NCBI RefSeq assembly: GCF_003752415.1
Contig: NZ_RKHG01000001.1
Coordinates: 186,001 to 250,000 of the forward strand
Source of the DNA: Luteococcus japonicus
Lineage (GTDB): Bacteria; Actinomycetota; Actinomycetes; Propionibacteriales; Propionibacteriaceae
DNA length: 64,000 nt
Reading direction: 5' to 3'
Part shown: in pieces, positions 5,338 to 11,436 of the stretch
Position numbering within the stretch: position 1 is the stretch's first letter
How the letters are laid out: every line of letters begins with the position of its first letter
Program-made: the position numbers and the translations under genes
The notes under the pieces: generated by a model
Database searches by the model: none
What the model saw: the letters and a program-made list of their open reading frames with translations, nothing else
What the model was told of the DNA's origin: nothing

Positions 5338-5375
5338 CCCGGCTACGACTCCCATTCGATGGAGTGGTAGCCGGG
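5338..5375. terminator. Hairpin terminator between convergent gltD and HTH gene
   Basis: A 15-nt arm at 5338-5352 pairs with 5361-5375 with one mismatch, around an 8-nt loop. It starts 10 bp after the gltD stop and contains the last codons and the stop (5343-5345) of the convergent gene, so it could serve both strands. There is no T-tract, as is common in high-GC actinobacteria. Confidence 0.7.
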
Positions 5376-6218
5376 TGCGGCATCGGTCAGTGCGCAATGG
5401 AGCGTGGATTCACCACTCAGCACCGGACGGTCCAGCCGGTGACCAGCGCCGTCGCGCGGGAATGCATGGCATCGGAAGTAGTTGCGGGGGGTCTTGTCGA
5501 CGAAGTCGACGGTGAGGGAGAAGTACTTGGCCGGCATGCCCAACCCGTAGCCGACGGACGTGACGGGCGCGGTGTCGGCAGCGAAGTTCACTTCGTGTTG
5601 CGCCATCACGATCGTGTCCCGCTTGACGGGCTGGTCCAAGCCGAATTCCAGCACCGAGAGATCTGGCGAGACCCGGATCTGTCGGCGTAGGGGAGCAATG
5701 CCGTCTCCGCGGGCCTCCACGTCGGCCTCGCCGGCCCTGTCCACTGCAATGGCCCAACCCTGGGCCCCCGAGACGACGGCGCGGAAGCCGATCCGGGTGG
5801 TGATCGAGCGTTGCCGTCCAGTGCTGTCCACCGTGGCGTGGTGGAAGACCAGCTCGGGACGCCACATCCCCAAGGGGGGAAGGTCGAAGCGCTGCTGCAG
5901 GTCCGCGACGAGCGGGTCCTGTTCCAGTCGTGAGACCAGATCCTGCTGCTCCGGTTGGGTGCGGATGGCGGACGTCAGGTGGTTGCGCGGTACCTGGAGC
6001 ACCGTCTCCAGCGCGTGGACGACGTCGAGGGAGCGGGCCCGGGTGGGCAGTGAACGCCCTGAGCACCAGTAGCTGAGGGTGGCAATGGAGACGGGCTGGC
6101 CCAAAGCTGCCAGATGGGCCTTGACCCGGGCCAGGGAGAGGCCGCGCTCGGTGATGGCATTCGTCAGCAGCGTGCTGAACTGCGCATCTTCCACCGAGCC
6201 GTCGGGGATGGGTTCCAT
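5343..6218 (-). CDS. Helix-turn-helix (XRE-like) protein of unknown role
   Basis: The 291-residue product has an N-terminal XRE-like helix-turn-helix segment (about residues 12-70, with SIATLSYWCSGRSLPTRARS reading as the turn and recognition region). A roughly 200-residue C-terminal part has no family I recognise. No membrane segment or signal peptide is seen. ATG 6218 was chosen over an upstream in-frame start because GAAGGA lies 9 nt before it. The gene stands alone, convergent with gltBD. Its C-terminal end lies within the shared terminator hairpin. It may be a DNA-binding regulator, but its targets cannot be inferred here. Confidence 0.72.
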   Translation of the reverse strand: MEPIPDGSVEDAQFSTLLTNAITERGLSLARVKAHLAALGQPVSIATLSYWCSGRSLPTRARSLDVVHALETVLQVPRNHLTSAIRTQPEQQDLVSRLEQDPLVADLQQRFDLPPLGMWRPELVFHHATVDSTGRQRSITTRIGFRAVVSGAQGWAIAVDRAGEADVEARGDGIAPLRRQIRVSPDLSVLEFGLDQPVKRDTIVMAQHEVNFAADTAPVTSVGYGLGMPAKYFSLTVDFVDKTPRNYFRCHAFPRDGAGHRLDRPVLSGESTLHCALTDAAPGYHSIEWES

Positions 6219-6340
6219 GCAGGGATTTCCTTCAGCCGCAGGGTTTGGCACGTCTGCCCGAGGTTACCCGATCCAGTAGGCGCGAGCCCGCGCAGGGCTT
6301 GGCCGGGGCCGATGCGGCGGTTCGGCCCCGGCGCTCGGCC

Positions 6341-7609
6341 TCAGCGGCGCGGCGGCGTGCCCTCGGCATTGGCGACGACGGCGTCCATCATCACCCTGAC
6401 TCCCTTGGCCAGCGCGGGCACCTGCACCACGCGTCGGGCCGGGACACCACCGGGGAAGTACTCCGCATAGGCGGCCTGCAGCTCGTCGAGCTCGCCCAGG
6501 TCTGCCACGAAGACGTTCACCTTGACCACGTCGGCCAGGCTGTGTCCGATGCTCTCCACGATGGCCTTGAGGTTGGCCAGGCACTGGCCAGCCTGCTCCT
6601 TGGCGCCACCGGCAACCAGTGCACCGGTGGCGTCGAAGGGCAGGAGTGCGGAGACGTTGTTGTAGTGGGAGAAGGCGACGCTCTGGGTGCTCATGGCATC
6701 GCGTGGGGCCTGGTCGGTGTTCGCGGCCCAGATGACCAGCCCGTGGCGGTCCTCGACGGCCTGGGGCGGGGTGCCGTCGCCATGGGAGAGCACGGCCTCC
6801 ACCTGCACTCGGGCGCCCTCCGGGAGCCCGGTGACGGCAACGATGCTGCGGGCCGGCAGGTATCCCGCCGTGCGCGCGATGGCCGAATCGGGGAAGAAGG
6901 TGGAGTACACCTCGTCGACGGCGGGCACATCGGCCAGATCGAGCAGGTGGATGGTGATCTTCACGATGTCGTCGAAGGGGGCGTCGATGCCCTCCATGAT
7001 CGCCTTGATGTTGGCGAGGCACCGGGTGGTCTGTTCCGCGATGCCGCCGGCGACCAGCGTGCCGGTCTCCGGGTCGATCGGCAGCTGCGCCGAGAGGTTG
7101 TTGTAGTGCGAGAAGGCGACGCTCTGGGTGGAGCAGGCGTTGCTGGGGGCCTGCGCCACATTGCGCGCGACCTTGACCAGGTCGCCGGGCTGCGGGGCAT
7201 CGGGGATGGTGCCCACGCCGTTGGAGACGACGGCCTCGATCTGCACCGCTGCCCCCAGCGGCAGGGCCGTCACGGCCAGGTTGGTGCGGGTGGGCAGGTA
7301 GTCGCCGTAGAACTCGCCGCAGACCTCGTCGACCGCAGCCAGGTCGGCAATGTCGGTGAGCATCACGGTGAGGCGGATGACGTCGTCGAGGGTGTGGTCG
7401 ATTCCCTCGATGACGGTCTTGAGGTTGGTGAGGCACTGCCTGGCCTGCTCGGTGATGCCGCCGGCCACGAGCTCCCCGGTGGCGGCCGCGACGGGCAGCT
7501 GGGCAGAAAGGTGGTTGTAGTGCGAGAAGGCGACCGTCTGCGAGGAATGTCCCTCGTCGAGGGGAGCCAGGGAGGTGTTGCGCGCGAGCACTGCATTGCT
7601 GGGTGCCAT
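6341..7609 (-). CDS. Protein of three tandem RidA (YjgF/UK114) domains
   Basis: RidA enzymes hydrolyse reactive enamine/imine intermediates such as 2-aminoacrylate and normally work as homotrimers of about 130 residues. This 422-residue protein carries three RidA units at roughly residues 20-135, 158-278 and 305-418. Each starts with a near-identical segment (VAFSHYNNLSAQLP type, at 26-39, 164-177 and 311-324). Each keeps the PxR arginine that binds the substrate carboxylate (Arg108, Arg254, Arg392) and the following EAVV/DAVV strand. ATG 7609 was chosen for its AAGAAGGAG ribosome-binding site. Upstream in-frame sequence has no RidA similarity. The gene is divergent from dnaE. The RidA assignment is firm; substrate and subgroup are not known. 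Confidence 0.88.
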   Translation of the reverse strand: MAPSNAVLARNTSLAPLDEGHSSQTVAFSHYNHLSAQLPVAAATGELVAGGITEQARQCLTNLKTVIEGIDHTLDDVIRLTVMLTDIADLAAVDEVCGEFYGDYLPTRTNLAVTALPLGAAVQIEAVVSNGVGTIPDAPQPGDLVKVARNVAQAPSNACSTQSVAFSHYNNLSAQLPIDPETGTLVAGGIAEQTTRCLANIKAIMEGIDAPFDDIVKITIHLLDLADVPAVDEVYSTFFPDSAIARTAGYLPARSIVAVTGLPEGARVQVEAVLSHGDGTPPQAVEDRHGLVIWAANTDQAPRDAMSTQSVAFSHYNNVSALLPFDATGALVAGGAKEQAGQCLANLKAIVESIGHSLADVVKVNVFVADLGELDELQAAYAEYFPGGVPARRVVQVPALAKGVRVMMDAVVANAEGTPPRR

Positions 7610-7700
7610 GGTGTGCACTCCTTCTTCGTTGGTGTGACGTCTTGCTCCGGGCTGGAGCCGTCGTCGGCATGTACACACCCAAATTCCGCCGACAACACTG

Positions 7701-7726
7701 GCCGTACGGCAACGCTGCCGTACGGC
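7701..7726. promoter_or_regulatory. Paired 10-bp palindromes, candidate operator
   Basis: Two identical perfect palindromes, GCCGTACGGC, lie at 7701-7710 and 7717-7726, with centres 16 bp apart. They sit in the divergent space between the triple-RidA gene and dnaE, 92 bp before the RidA start. On the minus strand a weak -35-like TTGTCG (7691-7696) and a TACATG -10-like box (7669-7674) lie just downstream. That arrangement would suit an activator or repressor of the RidA gene. Confidence 0.5.
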
Positions 7727-7875: not shown

Positions 7876-10800
7876 ATGGTTGACAACTTCGTCCACCTGC
7901 ACACGCACACCGAGTACTCGATGCTCGACGGTGCCGCGAAGAACTCCAAGCTCTTCGCCGAGGTTGCCCGTCAGGGCATGCCGGCCATCGCCATGACCGA
8001 CCACGGCAACATGTTCGGTGCCTACGAGTTCCACAAGCTCGGCAAGGACTACGAGGGCGTCAAGGCGATCATCGGCATCGAGGCCTATGTCGCCCCGTCG
8101 TCGCGTCACTCACGGTCGCAGGAGTACTGGGCCACCGGCCGGCATGACAGCGGTGACGCCTCGGTGGAGGGCGGCAAGGACGTTTCCGGCGGTGGCCGCT
8201 ACACCCACATGACCATGTGGGCGCAGAATGCGACGGGTCTTCGCAACCTCTTCCGGTTGAGCTCGCTGGCCAGCTTCGAGGGCTACTACATGAAGCCCCG
8301 CATGGACCGGGAGATCATCAGCGAGTGGTCCGAGGGCATCATCGCCACCACCGGCTGCCCGTCCGGCGAGGTGCAGACGCGGCTGCGGCTGGGGCAGTTC
8401 GACGAGGCCGTCGCGGCAGCCGCCGCCTACCAGGAGATCTTCGGGCGTGAGAACTACTTCCTGGAGCTGATGGACCACGGCATCGACATCGAGCGCAATG
8501 TGCGAGAAGACCTGCTGCGCGTCGCCAAGAAGCTGAACATCCCGCTGCTGGCCACCAACGACTCCCACTACGTCACCGAGGACCAGGCCGACAGCCACGA
8601 CGACCTGCTGTGCGTGGGCGTGGGCCGCAACAAGGACGACCCCAACCGCTTCCGCTTCAACGGCTCCGGCTACTACATCAAGAGCTCCGAGGAGATGCGC
8701 AAGCTCTTCAGTGAGCTGCCGGAGGCGTGCGACAACACCCTCGCGATCGCCGAGCGGATCGAGAGCTACGACGACGTCTTCAAGCACGTCGACCGGATGC
8801 CGCAGTTCGACGTCCCCGAGGGGGAGACCCAGAACTCGTGGCTGCGCAAGAAGGTTGCCGAGGGAATCACCGTGCGTTACGGGGAGAACCCCTCGCAGGA
8901 GGTGCTGGAGCGCGTCGAGACGGAGCTCAAGGTCATCGAGCCGCTGGGCTTCAGCTCCTACTTCCTGGTGGTCTCCGACATCTGCAATGCCGCCCGGGAC
9001 ATGGGCGTGGCCGTCGGACCGGGGCGAGGATCCGCCGCCGGCTCGATGATCGCCTACCTGACCGGCATCATCCAGGTGGACCCCCTGGAACACGGCCTGC
9101 TCTTCGAGCGCTTCCTCAACCCCGAGCGGATCAGCCCGCCCGACATCGACCTCGACTTCGACGACCGCAAGCGTGACAAGGTCATCGACTACGTCACGAA
9201 CAAGTACGGCGAGGCCTACACCAGCCAGGTCAACACCTTCGGCACCATCAAGGCGAAGGCCGCCGTCAAGGACGCCAACCGCATCCTGGGCTATCCCTTC
9301 GGTCTGGGCGACAAGATCACCAAGGCGATGCCCGCCGACGTGATGGGCAAGGGCGTCCCGCTCAAGGACCTGTTCAACGAGAAGCACCCCCGCTATGCGG
9401 AGGGCATGGAGATCCGGGAGCTCTACAACACCCAGGCCGACGTCAAGAAGGTCATCGACACGGGCCTGGGCCTGGAGGGCCTGATCCGTGGCACCGGCGT
9501 GCACGCCTGCGCCTTCATCCTGTCCAGCGAGAAGCTGCTCGACGTGATCCCGATGCACAAGCGGGACAAGGACGGCATGATCATCGCCGGCTTCGCCTAT
9601 CCTCAGCTCGAGGAAATGGGCCTGATGAAGATGGACTTCCTGGGCCTGCGCAACCTGGGCATCATGGACCACGCCGTCAAGATCATCAAGCGCAACCAGG
9701 GCGTCGACGTCGACGTCTCCACGCTCGCACTGGACGACGAGAAGACCTACCAGCTGCTGGCTCGTGGTGACACGCTGGGCGTCTTCCAGCTCGACGGTGG
9801 CGCGATGCGCTCGCTGCTGCGCCAGATGGGGCCGACCGGCTTCGACGACATCACCGCCGTGCTGGCGCTCTACCGTCCCGGGCCGATGGGTGCCAATGCC
9901 CACATCGCCTATGCCGAGCGCAAGAACGGGCGCCAGGAGATCATCCCGATCCACCCGGAGCTCAAGGAGGCCCTGGACCCGCTGATCGGTGACACCTTCC
10001 ACCTGATCGTGTACCAGGAGCAGATCATGGCCATCGCGCGTGCCCTGGCCGGGTACACGCTGGGTGGCGCCGACCTGCTGCGCCGTGCCATGGGCAAGAA
10101 GAAGCCCGAGATCCTGGCCAAGGAGTTCGGCCACTTCCAGGAGGGCATGCGCGGCAACGGCTACTCCGACGACGCCATCCAGACCCTGTGGGACGTCATG
10201 GTCCCCTTCGCCGGCTACGCCTTCAACAAGTCGCACGCCGCCGGCTACGCCCTGGTCTCCTACTGGACTGCCTGGCTGAAGGCCAACTACCCGGCCGAGT
10301 ACGGCGCCGCGCTGCTCACCAGCGTGGGCGACGACAAGGACAAGATGGCGATGTACCTGGGCGACATGCGCGCCCAGCGGATCAAGGTGCTGCCGCCCGA
10401 CGTGAACTCCTCGGAGCTGGAGTTCACCGCCGTCGGCGAGGACATCCGCTTCGGTCTGGGCGCCATCCGCAATGTTGGTGAGCACGTCGTCGAGGGCATC
10501 GTCACGGCTCGTGGGGAGCACGGGGCCTACACCGACTTCTACGACTTCCTGGACAAGGTGCCGTTGCAGGTCTGCAACAAGCGGATGATCGAGTCGCTGA
10601 TCAAGGCCGGAGCCTTCGACGCGCTGGGGCATTCCCGCCGTGCGTTGATGAGCATCTTCGAGGCGGCGGTGGACCAGGTGCTGGACCTCAAGCGCAACCA
10701 GGCCAACGGTCAGGATGACCTCTTCGGTGACTTCGGGCTGGCCGCCGACGAGCCGGAGGCGCAACAGCACCACGAGACGGTGCCGGACATGGAGGACTGG

Positions 10801-11436
10801 GACAAGCGCACCAAGCTCGCCTTCGAACGCGAGATGCTTGGCCTCTATGTTTCCGACCATCCGCTGCAGGGCCTGGAGCACATCCTGGAGTCCGAGCGTG
10901 ACATCTCCATCGGCAACCTCGTCGCGCCCGACGGGCCGAAGGAGGGGATGATGAGCATCGCCGGGATGATCACCTCCATCCAGCGCAAGCAGACCAAGGC
11001 GGGTGCCATCTGGGCGATCCTGCAGGTGGAGGACCTGGAGGCGTCGGTGAACGTGATGTGCTTCCCGAAGGTCTACGAACAGGTACAGATGTACCTGGCG
11101 ACGGACCAGGTGGTGCGGGTCAAGGGACGGATCCGGGAGAAGGAGGACGCCGTCGAACTGCACTGTCAGGAGCTGTCGGTGCCGGACATCTCCGACGGTC
11201 CCACCGGTCCGGTGGTGATCCAGCTGCCCGCCGGCCGCTGCACCCCGCCGGTGGTGGACCAGCTCAAGGAGGTCCTGCACAGCCACCCGGGCATGACGGA
11301 GGTTCGGGTGCGTCTGGTCACCCAACAGAGCAGCACCACCTTGTACCGGCTCGACGACACGCTGCGCGTGACCGCATCGCAACCGCTGATGGCGGACCTC
11401 AAGGCCTTGCTGGGCCCGTCGTGTCTGGCCAGCTAG
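7876..11436 (+). CDS. dnaE: DNA polymerase III alpha subunit
   Basis: This is the replicative DNA polymerase catalytic subunit. The 1186-residue length is typical of actinobacterial DnaE1. The N-terminal PHP domain starts with HLHTHTEYSMLDGAA, keeping the metal-binding histidines. The catalytic aspartates appear in PDIDLDFDD near 9140-9165. The G-rich palm/finger segment (GPGRGSAAGSM) precedes them. A C-terminal OB-fold (around MSIAGMITSIQRKQTKAGA) follows. ATG 7876 gives the conserved start MVDNFVHLHTHTEYS. It stands alone, divergent from the RidA gene. Confidence 0.98.
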   Translation: MVDNFVHLHTHTEYSMLDGAAKNSKLFAEVARQGMPAIAMTDHGNMFGAYEFHKLGKDYEGVKAIIGIEAYVAPSSRHSRSQEYWATGRHDSGDASVEGGKDVSGGGRYTHMTMWAQNATGLRNLFRLSSLASFEGYYMKPRMDREIISEWSEGIIATTGCPSGEVQTRLRLGQFDEAVAAAAAYQEIFGRENYFLELMDHGIDIERNVREDLLRVAKKLNIPLLATNDSHYVTEDQADSHDDLLCVGVGRNKDDPNRFRFNGSGYYIKSSEEMRKLFSELPEACDNTLAIAERIESYDDVFKHVDRMPQFDVPEGETQNSWLRKKVAEGITVRYGENPSQEVLERVETELKVIEPLGFSSYFLVVSDICNAARDMGVAVGPGRGSAAGSMIAYLTGIIQVDPLEHGLLFERFLNPERISPPDIDLDFDDRKRDKVIDYVTNKYGEAYTSQVNTFGTIKAKAAVKDANRILGYPFGLGDKITKAMPADVMGKGVPLKDLFNEKHPRYAEGMEIRELYNTQADVKKVIDTGLGLEGLIRGTGVHACAFILSSEKLLDVIPMHKRDKDGMIIAGFAYPQLEEMGLMKMDFLGLRNLGIMDHAVKIIKRNQGVDVDVSTLALDDEKTYQLLARGDTLGVFQLDGGAMRSLLRQMGPTGFDDITAVLALYRPGPMGANAHIAYAERKNGRQEIIPIHPELKEALDPLIGDTFHLIVYQEQIMAIARALAGYTLGGADLLRRAMGKKKPEILAKEFGHFQEGMRGNGYSDDAIQTLWDVMVPFAGYAFNKSHAAGYALVSYWTAWLKANYPAEYGAALLTSVGDDKDKMAMYLGDMRAQRIKVLPPDVNSSELEFTAVGEDIRFGLGAIRNVGEHVVEGIVTARGEHGAYTDFYDFLDKVPLQVCNKRMIESLIKAGAFDALGHSRRALMSIFEAAVDQVLDLKRNQANGQDDLFGDFGLAADEPEAQQHHETVPDMEDWDKRTKLAFEREMLGLYVSDHPLQGLEHILESERDISIGNLVAPDGPKEGMMSIAGMITSIQRKQTKAGAIWAILQVEDLEASVNVMCFPKVYEQVQMYLATDQVVRVKGRIREKEDAVELHCQELSVPDISDGPTGPVVIQLPAGRCTPPVVDQLKEVLHSHPGMTEVRVRLVTQQSSTTLYRLDDTLRVTASQPLMADLKALLGPSCLAS

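Follow-up and report, generated by a model that had tools for sequence, protein, structure and literature searches.

Within a 64,000-nucleotide stretch of the Luteococcus japonicus genome (contig NZ_RKHG01000001.1, positions 186,001–250,000 of the forward strand; hereafter the window), one gene encodes a 422-residue chain in which three RidA domains follow one another, an architecture known as 3x-RidA. This gene is a real, intact, conserved and somewhat divergent member of the known 3x-RidA group. Judged from alignment with its relatives, the three substrate pockets are altered alike, and this alteration is a shared signature of the group. With a probability of roughly 0.6, we read 3x-RidA as a one-chain, trimer-like Rid protein of general metabolite-damage control, which would hydrolyze imines or enamines and would do so as a stand-alone protein.

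The frame (Table 1) runs through 422 codons with no internal stop, and its GC contents at the first, second and third codon positions (0.70, 0.46 and 0.91) are typical of a genuine gene in DNA rich in GC. Pfam family PF01042 matches three stretches of the protein (213.5 bits, expect value (E) 8e-64), as does TIGR00004, whose score for the whole protein, with three domains scored together, reaches 251.5 bits, above the cut-off of 106.25; the score for the RutC family TIGR03610 is 114.7 bits, below the cut-off of 169.1. Pairwise identities among the domains are 57, 47 and 49%, and their opening segments (SQTVAFSHYNHLSAQLP, TQSVAFSHYNNLSAQLP and TQSVAFSHYNNVSALLP) are alike. An earlier note, made from the sequence alone, had described three RidA units in one 422-residue chain, each with the arginine of a PxR motif (Arg108, Arg254 and Arg392) and a near-identical opening segment; the profile matches and the intact frame bear out this description, and all three arginines stand at the PxR position of the alignment. 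The triple fusion itself is not new. Niehaus et al. named the architecture 3x-RidA in 2015, with EF_0115 of Enterococcus faecalis V583 as the example, and the available text of that paper presumes a covalently linked trimer (PMC4433059); both the architecture and the simplest way to interpret it are already in print.

A contig scan of genomes yielded 454 relatives, and alignment ranges, identities and phyla are reported for the best 80 of them. These 80 are 61–67% identical to the window protein, align from residue 1 (in one case 5) to residue 421 or 422, and each match as one continuous place. Counts out of 87 proteins (261 domains) refer to the window protein and 86 relatives; near-copies such as L036 and L037 were kept, and loci L001–L003, L005 (the window itself), L067 (the same protein as L006), L007 (a split frame) and L008 (partial) were dropped. 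Chance is excluded because almost the entire chain is covered in the alignments of the 86 relatives, and 66 of the 87 sequences, a set that includes the window protein, are 423 residues long. The linkers are long and were predicted with low confidence, which would suit a chain that is cut after translation into three separate RidA subunits. Such cleavage is highly improbable, however: linker residues 275–283 and 286–290 are each identical in 85–87 of the 87 proteins, among the most conserved parts of the chain, and the unbroken matches of the best 80 relatives speak against it as well.

Residue conservation and structure prediction together support the single-chain trimer that had been proposed and make a pseudo-trimer likely, since most interface residues are kept and the predicted template modelling (pTM) scores are high. 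Subunit contacts in Arabidopsis RidA are reported at S80, S92, K136, S166 and E182 in the available text of the source (PMC4960622), and these positions were mapped onto 3x-RidA by their offset from the substrate arginine. In the window protein, S80, S92, K136 and E182 correspond to S23/T161/T308, S35/S173/S320, R79/K217/K363 and E125/E271/D409, respectively. Across the 261 domains, the S80 position holds Ser or Thr in 251 and Ala in 10, the S92 position Ser or Thr in 258 and Ala in 3, the K136 position Lys or Arg in 260 and Asn in 1, and the E182 position Glu or Asp throughout. In the window protein, each of the three units has the Ser/Thr18, Ser30, Lys/Arg76 and Glu/Asp122 contacts, although the S166 position is Arg393 in domain 3. 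The suggested monomer prediction with AlphaFold2 packs the three domains of the window protein with a pTM of 0.84 and a predicted local distance difference test (pLDDT) score of 75.9, and the Neobacillus relative L045 gives 0.90 and 86.2; in our judgement, these values point to a definite packing, as a chain of domains that do not pack against one another should score much lower. Solved single-domain RidA chains differ in whether domain 1, 2 or 3 is their best match in a sequence search, and a fold search matched a one-domain stretch of the model to RidA chains with template modelling scores of 0.79–0.91 to the target among the 50 matches listed. No three-domain relative occurred among the PDB matches, all of whose matched chains have at most 165 residues.

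The pockets were compared with those of 57 single Rid domains, 45 from Actinomycetota genomes and 12 from the 23 genomes with a 3x-RidA gene; weak, partial or multi-domain frames, including the second Rid protein of the window genome (L004), were left out. The position of Glu120 was placed 15 residues after the substrate arginine, as in TdcF (Arg105, Glu120), in an ungapped alignment, which gives residues 123, 269 and 407; the interface Glu/Asp lies at Arg+17 (125, 271 and 409). At the Gly31 position, Ala stands in 87, 87 and 84 of the 87 first, second and third domains (258/261, with three Gly in domain 3), including all three domains of the window protein; 56 of the 57 single Rids have Gly there. 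Tyr occupies the Tyr17 position in 62/87 first, 0/87 second and 6/87 third domains, versus Tyr or Phe in 55 of the 57 single Rids; the window protein has Ser22, Ser160 and Ser307 there. The motif SHYN (positions 24–27) is present in all 261 3x-RidA domains versus none of the 57 single ones, and position 27 is Asn in the 60 3x-RidA domains compared, as against V, I or L in 53/57. The retained pockets of the earlier note are therefore retained in part: the PxR arginines remain, but in the window protein Glu120 is replaced by Gln, Gln and Met, Gly31 by Ala and Tyr17 by Ser.

In the mechanism that we propose, the three Rid folds would pack like the RidA homotrimer and leave one cleft at each of the domain boundaries 1/2, 2/3 and 3/1; the arginines of these clefts would bind small 2-imino or 2-oxo acids, and the protein may speed up imine or enamine hydrolysis; the protein would act alone, outside any operon. 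Because replacing the arginine with Ala nearly abolishes the activity of Salmonella RidA, whereas Ala at the Tyr17 or Glu120 position matters little, according to the available text (PMC4433059), imine hydrolysis in those clefts that keep the arginine appears to be the most likely function, and a plausible one; by the same token, the loss of Glu120 does not rule it out. The three clefts are probably unequal, since domain 1 can lose its arginine, an insert is present in domain 2, and Tyr17 is missing in 87/87 second and 81/87 third domains. Three different active sites, as had been suggested, are thus possible, with the 8-residue insert before the arginine of domain 2 and the replaced domain-1 arginine of 19/87 proteins as the visible differences.

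Several observations weigh against imine hydrolysis by a one-chain trimer. Of the 261 3x-RidA domains, 259 have Gln and 2 have Met at the Glu120 position, where 53 of the 57 single domains have Glu. The essential arginine is replaced in domain 1 of 19 proteins, whereas every domain keeps SHYN, so the known catalytic residue is not where selection is centred; 15 of the 19 replacements are Leu, all in Pseudomonas and beta-proteobacterial relatives such as Craterilacuibacter, Aquitalea and Crenobacter. The remaining contact, S166, is T109, S255 and R393 in the window protein, and Arg stands there in domain 3 of 83/87 proteins; this position is also variable among single Rids. The AlphaFold2 models were built on alignments of 46 close relatives, and the domain-2 insert as well as the linkers has low confidence. 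Furthermore, all eight Bacillota and Pseudomonadota genomes examined carry a separate strong PF01042 gene (at least 116 bits), which leaves no obvious need for a second copy of that activity. Finally, in our literature search, judged from listings and matching passages of open-access papers, no assay, activity or structure of any 3x-RidA was found.

The main rival is accordingly that the single-chain Rid trimer carries out another reaction or serves in binding; SHYN, Gln and Ala would then form the true site, and the arginine clefts would be partly vestigial. The invariance or near-invariance of these three features, the Asn at position 27 and the loss of the domain-1 arginine in 19/87 proteins speak for it. 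Against it, the arginine is still kept in 68, 83 and 86 of the 87 first, second and third domains, Gln is shaped like Glu and could still hold a water molecule, and neither a substrate nor a ligand nor a partner gene is known. We consider this alternative unlikely, although it deserves to be taken seriously. Considerably more doubtful is a separate Rid subfamily in which three SHYN hairpins meet at the pseudo-threefold axis, for instance as a three-histidine site, with the arginine clefts secondary; the fusion would then hold in place a site whose formation requires a trimer. From strand topology, we infer that SHYN lies near this axis.

A further alternative is that the window copy is a decaying gene of little function. 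Its protein forms the longest end branch of a 45-row tree (0.74 versus a median of 0.13), is the only one of the 87 to deviate at positions 210, 196 and 396, all of them near-invariant, and shares its deviation at position 322 with L041 only. In the family of L. japonicus, a strong match was found in just 3 of 146 other genomes, one full-length, one split over two frames and one in pieces. In the split case (G075, locus L007, G075:C1:1340346–1341607), the chain lies in two frames covering residues 1–339 and 333–421, which is either a broken gene or a sequencing error; the third genome, G109, has pieces only. Against decay stand an open frame of normal length, a ribosome-binding site and the retention of every SHYN motif and substrate arginine. 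Moreover, some of the odd residues appear to be inherited, since Met407 is shared with the copy in G067 and Leu322 with L041. Decay is therefore improbable in our estimate, and imine hydrolysis by an intact 3x-RidA remains the reading that we prefer.

The earlier note also proposed duplication within the gene, and domain phylogeny agrees, with the event placed far back. A tree of 60 domains from 20 3x-RidA proteins and 26 single Rid domains (126 columns, with finer forks unsure) sets the 60 apart from the 26 on one branch with support 100. Domains 2 and 3 each form one group (support 98 and 96), and domain 1 as a single group is unresolved yet not rejected (approximately unbiased test, p-AU 0.568). 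Each window domain is 67–71% identical to the same-position domain in other genera, which exceeds its identity to its chain neighbours, so the copies do not stem from a recent duplication, an origin that the domain trees rule out. One triplication before the family spread would be the simplest reading of these trees, and the likeness among the three domains is old and held by selection.

By NCBI ranks, the best 80 relatives comprise 54 Bacillota, 19 Pseudomonadota, 6 Actinomycetota and 1 Krumholzibacteriota (a bin), and records of a plasmid collection carry 3x-RidA in Enterococcus, Photobacterium and Vibrio. Near the window lineage, the gene is rare in the samples searched. With at most four first-look candidates scored per genome, the window genome was the only one among 394 of its class at E 1e-60, and 10 of 396 genomes of its phylum had a full-length copy, namely the window genome and nine of one family. 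In the 45-row protein tree, the window protein falls with Propioniciclava among actinomycetes (Shimodaira–Hasegawa-like approximate likelihood ratio test 100 for a group of five and 83 for the pair). Phyla are partly mixed in this tree, with 6 changes versus a minimum of 3, which suggests, without proving, gene transfer. In another actinomycetotal genome, a different frame of 538 codons (L146, G543:C57:7249–8310, minus strand) matches PF01042 in three stretches, weakly in the middle one, and lacks SHYN; it is perhaps an independent three-Rid fusion. The same three-match pattern is seen at G574:C6:3052–4110, from match coordinates alone.

PF01042 proteins were also sought in 23 genomes with a 3x-RidA gene, including the split copy of G075 and the pieces of G109. 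In seven of the nine genomes of the one family of the phylum mentioned above, no match beyond the triple was found; the other two have one further match each, which in one genome is distributed across two frames. Besides 3x-RidA, the window genome encodes a single Rid protein, which is divergent (L004, G000:C1:1608172) and about 153 residues long, with a PF01042 score of 53 bits and a TIGR00004 score of 42.5, below the cut-off of 106; the frames adjoining it presumably encode a Crp-like and a WhiB-like protein. The three relatives in the family of L. japonicus have one or two further matches, and the ten genomes reached through the loci of relatives have at least one each. The suggestion that fusion prevents mixing with other RidA proteins is weakened by this distribution: seven of nine genomes have only the triple, so avoiding mixed trimers is not a general reason for fusion, although it may apply in the genomes where both kinds occur.

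The absence of conserved neighbours fits a stand-alone repair protein. Six genes on each side were collected by a crude longest-frame gene call and clustered across 88 loci, several of them short (909 proteins). A conserved operon was considered and rejected: the largest neighbour cluster, which we take on reading to be an ATP-binding cassette (ABC)-type ATPase, occurs at varying positions in 16 of the 88 loci, and 3x-RidA has no constant neighbour. Frames in the first 20 kb of the window outside the 3x-RidA gene had no match in the loci of relatives at E 1e-15. On the Vibrio parahaemolyticus plasmid pHLC (L040), an APC permease gene, aguA and an argF-like gene precede 3x-RidA on the same strand, and arcC is encoded on the opposite one; this setting recalls the published link between RidA and carbamoyl phosphate, as given in the available text (PMC4433059), with which it would be in line. 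The arcC, aguA and argF-like group appeared nowhere else in the neighbour clustering of the 88 loci, in which no search was aimed at those genes.

Around the gene itself, the next frame on the same strand (5343–6251, minus, 302 codons) has no Pfam match at E 1. Just past the 3x-RidA stop, at 6302–6332, lies a perfect inverted repeat with an 11-base stem and a 9-base loop, without a T run. This hairpin is a possible terminator, in which case the 3x-RidA gene would be monocistronic. The palindrome GCCGTACGGC occurs twice, six bases apart, at 7701–7726, between 3x-RidA and the divergent frame 7876–11436, which by our reading presumably encodes a dnaE-like protein. A genome-wide search that allowed up to two mismatches gave this pair a single time, and it was found in none of the loci of relatives searched, the window's own aside; it is possibly a dedicated operator.

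Table 1. Features of the 3x-RidA gene, in window coordinates, with their basis or their conservation among 87 aligned proteins
Feature	Position	Strand	Basis or conservation
3x-RidA gene, 422 aa	6341–7609	minus	ATG start, TGA stop; profile matches and reading frame
AAGGAG, likely ribosome-binding site	7618–7623	minus	read from sequence; 8 bases from ATG
RidA domain 1 (residues 8–133)	7211–7588	minus	PF01042 and alignment; limits set for domain tree
RidA domain 2 (residues 147–279)	6773–7171	minus	PF01042 and alignment; limits set for domain tree
RidA domain 3 (residues 294–418)	6356–6730	minus	PF01042 and alignment; limits set for domain tree
Conserved linker, domains 1–2 (residues 131–146)	7172–7219	minus	alignment of relatives
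Conserved linker, domains 2–3 (residues 275–292)	6734–6787	minus	alignment of relatives; SHGDGTPPQAVEDRHG in many relatives
Arg108, substrate Arg of domain 1 (TdcF Arg105)	7286–7288	minus	R in 68/87
Arg254, substrate Arg of domain 2	6848–6850	minus	R in 83/87
Arg392, substrate Arg of domain 3	6434–6436	minus	R in 86/87
Gln123, TdcF Glu120 position, domain 1	7241–7243	minus	Q in 87/87
Gln269, Glu120 position, domain 2	6803–6805	minus	Q in 87/87
Met407, Glu120 position, domain 3	6389–6391	minus	Q in 85/87; Met only in window and L006 (G067)
SHYN, domain 1 (residues 29–32)	7514–7525	minus	87/87
SHYN, domain 2 (residues 167–170)	7100–7111	minus	87/87
SHYN, domain 3 (residues 314–317)	6659–6670	minus	87/87
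Insert DSAIARTA, 8 residues, domain 2 only, just before its PAR motif	6866–6889	minus	PDSAIAR in 72/87, near-identical forms in 15/87

Fused RidA trimers are widespread, and neither an assay in the open-access literature nor a structure among the PDB matches was found for them. The pocket signature makes their assumed activity worth testing. If the shared pocket changes matter, annotating 3x-RidA as an ordinary detoxifying Rid hydrolase may be wrong, and in some genomes, seven of the nine from one family of the phylum among them, PF01042 would find no ordinary Rid protein. The fused trimer also allows each cleft to be mutated singly, which an ordinary homotrimer does not.

Among known systems, the published 3x-RidA is the closest, as the window protein likewise has three tandem RidA domains in one chain (PMC4433059). 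A RidA-family protein of E. faecalis (L037, 422 aa) aligns with the window protein over residues 1–420 at 60% identity. The available text of that paper places 3x-RidA in the RidA subfamily without describing the shared pocket changes, and Gln, Ala, SHYN and the domain-2 insert were not found described in the accessible parts of the open-access RidA literature either. The L146 frame shares three PF01042 stretches with 3x-RidA but differs in sequence and lacks SHYN. RutC is a single-domain protein encoded in the rut operon, and the window protein matches its family profile (TIGR03610), yet below the cut-off. With the single-domain imine deaminases RidA, TdcF, YabJ and UK114 (TIGR00004, PF01042), 3x-RidA has in common the domain family, the substrate arginine and most trimer-contact residues; unlike 3x-RidA, these proteins are built of a single domain per chain, about 130 residues long, mostly keep Glu120, Gly31 and Tyr17, and have SHYN in 0 of the 57 single domains compared.
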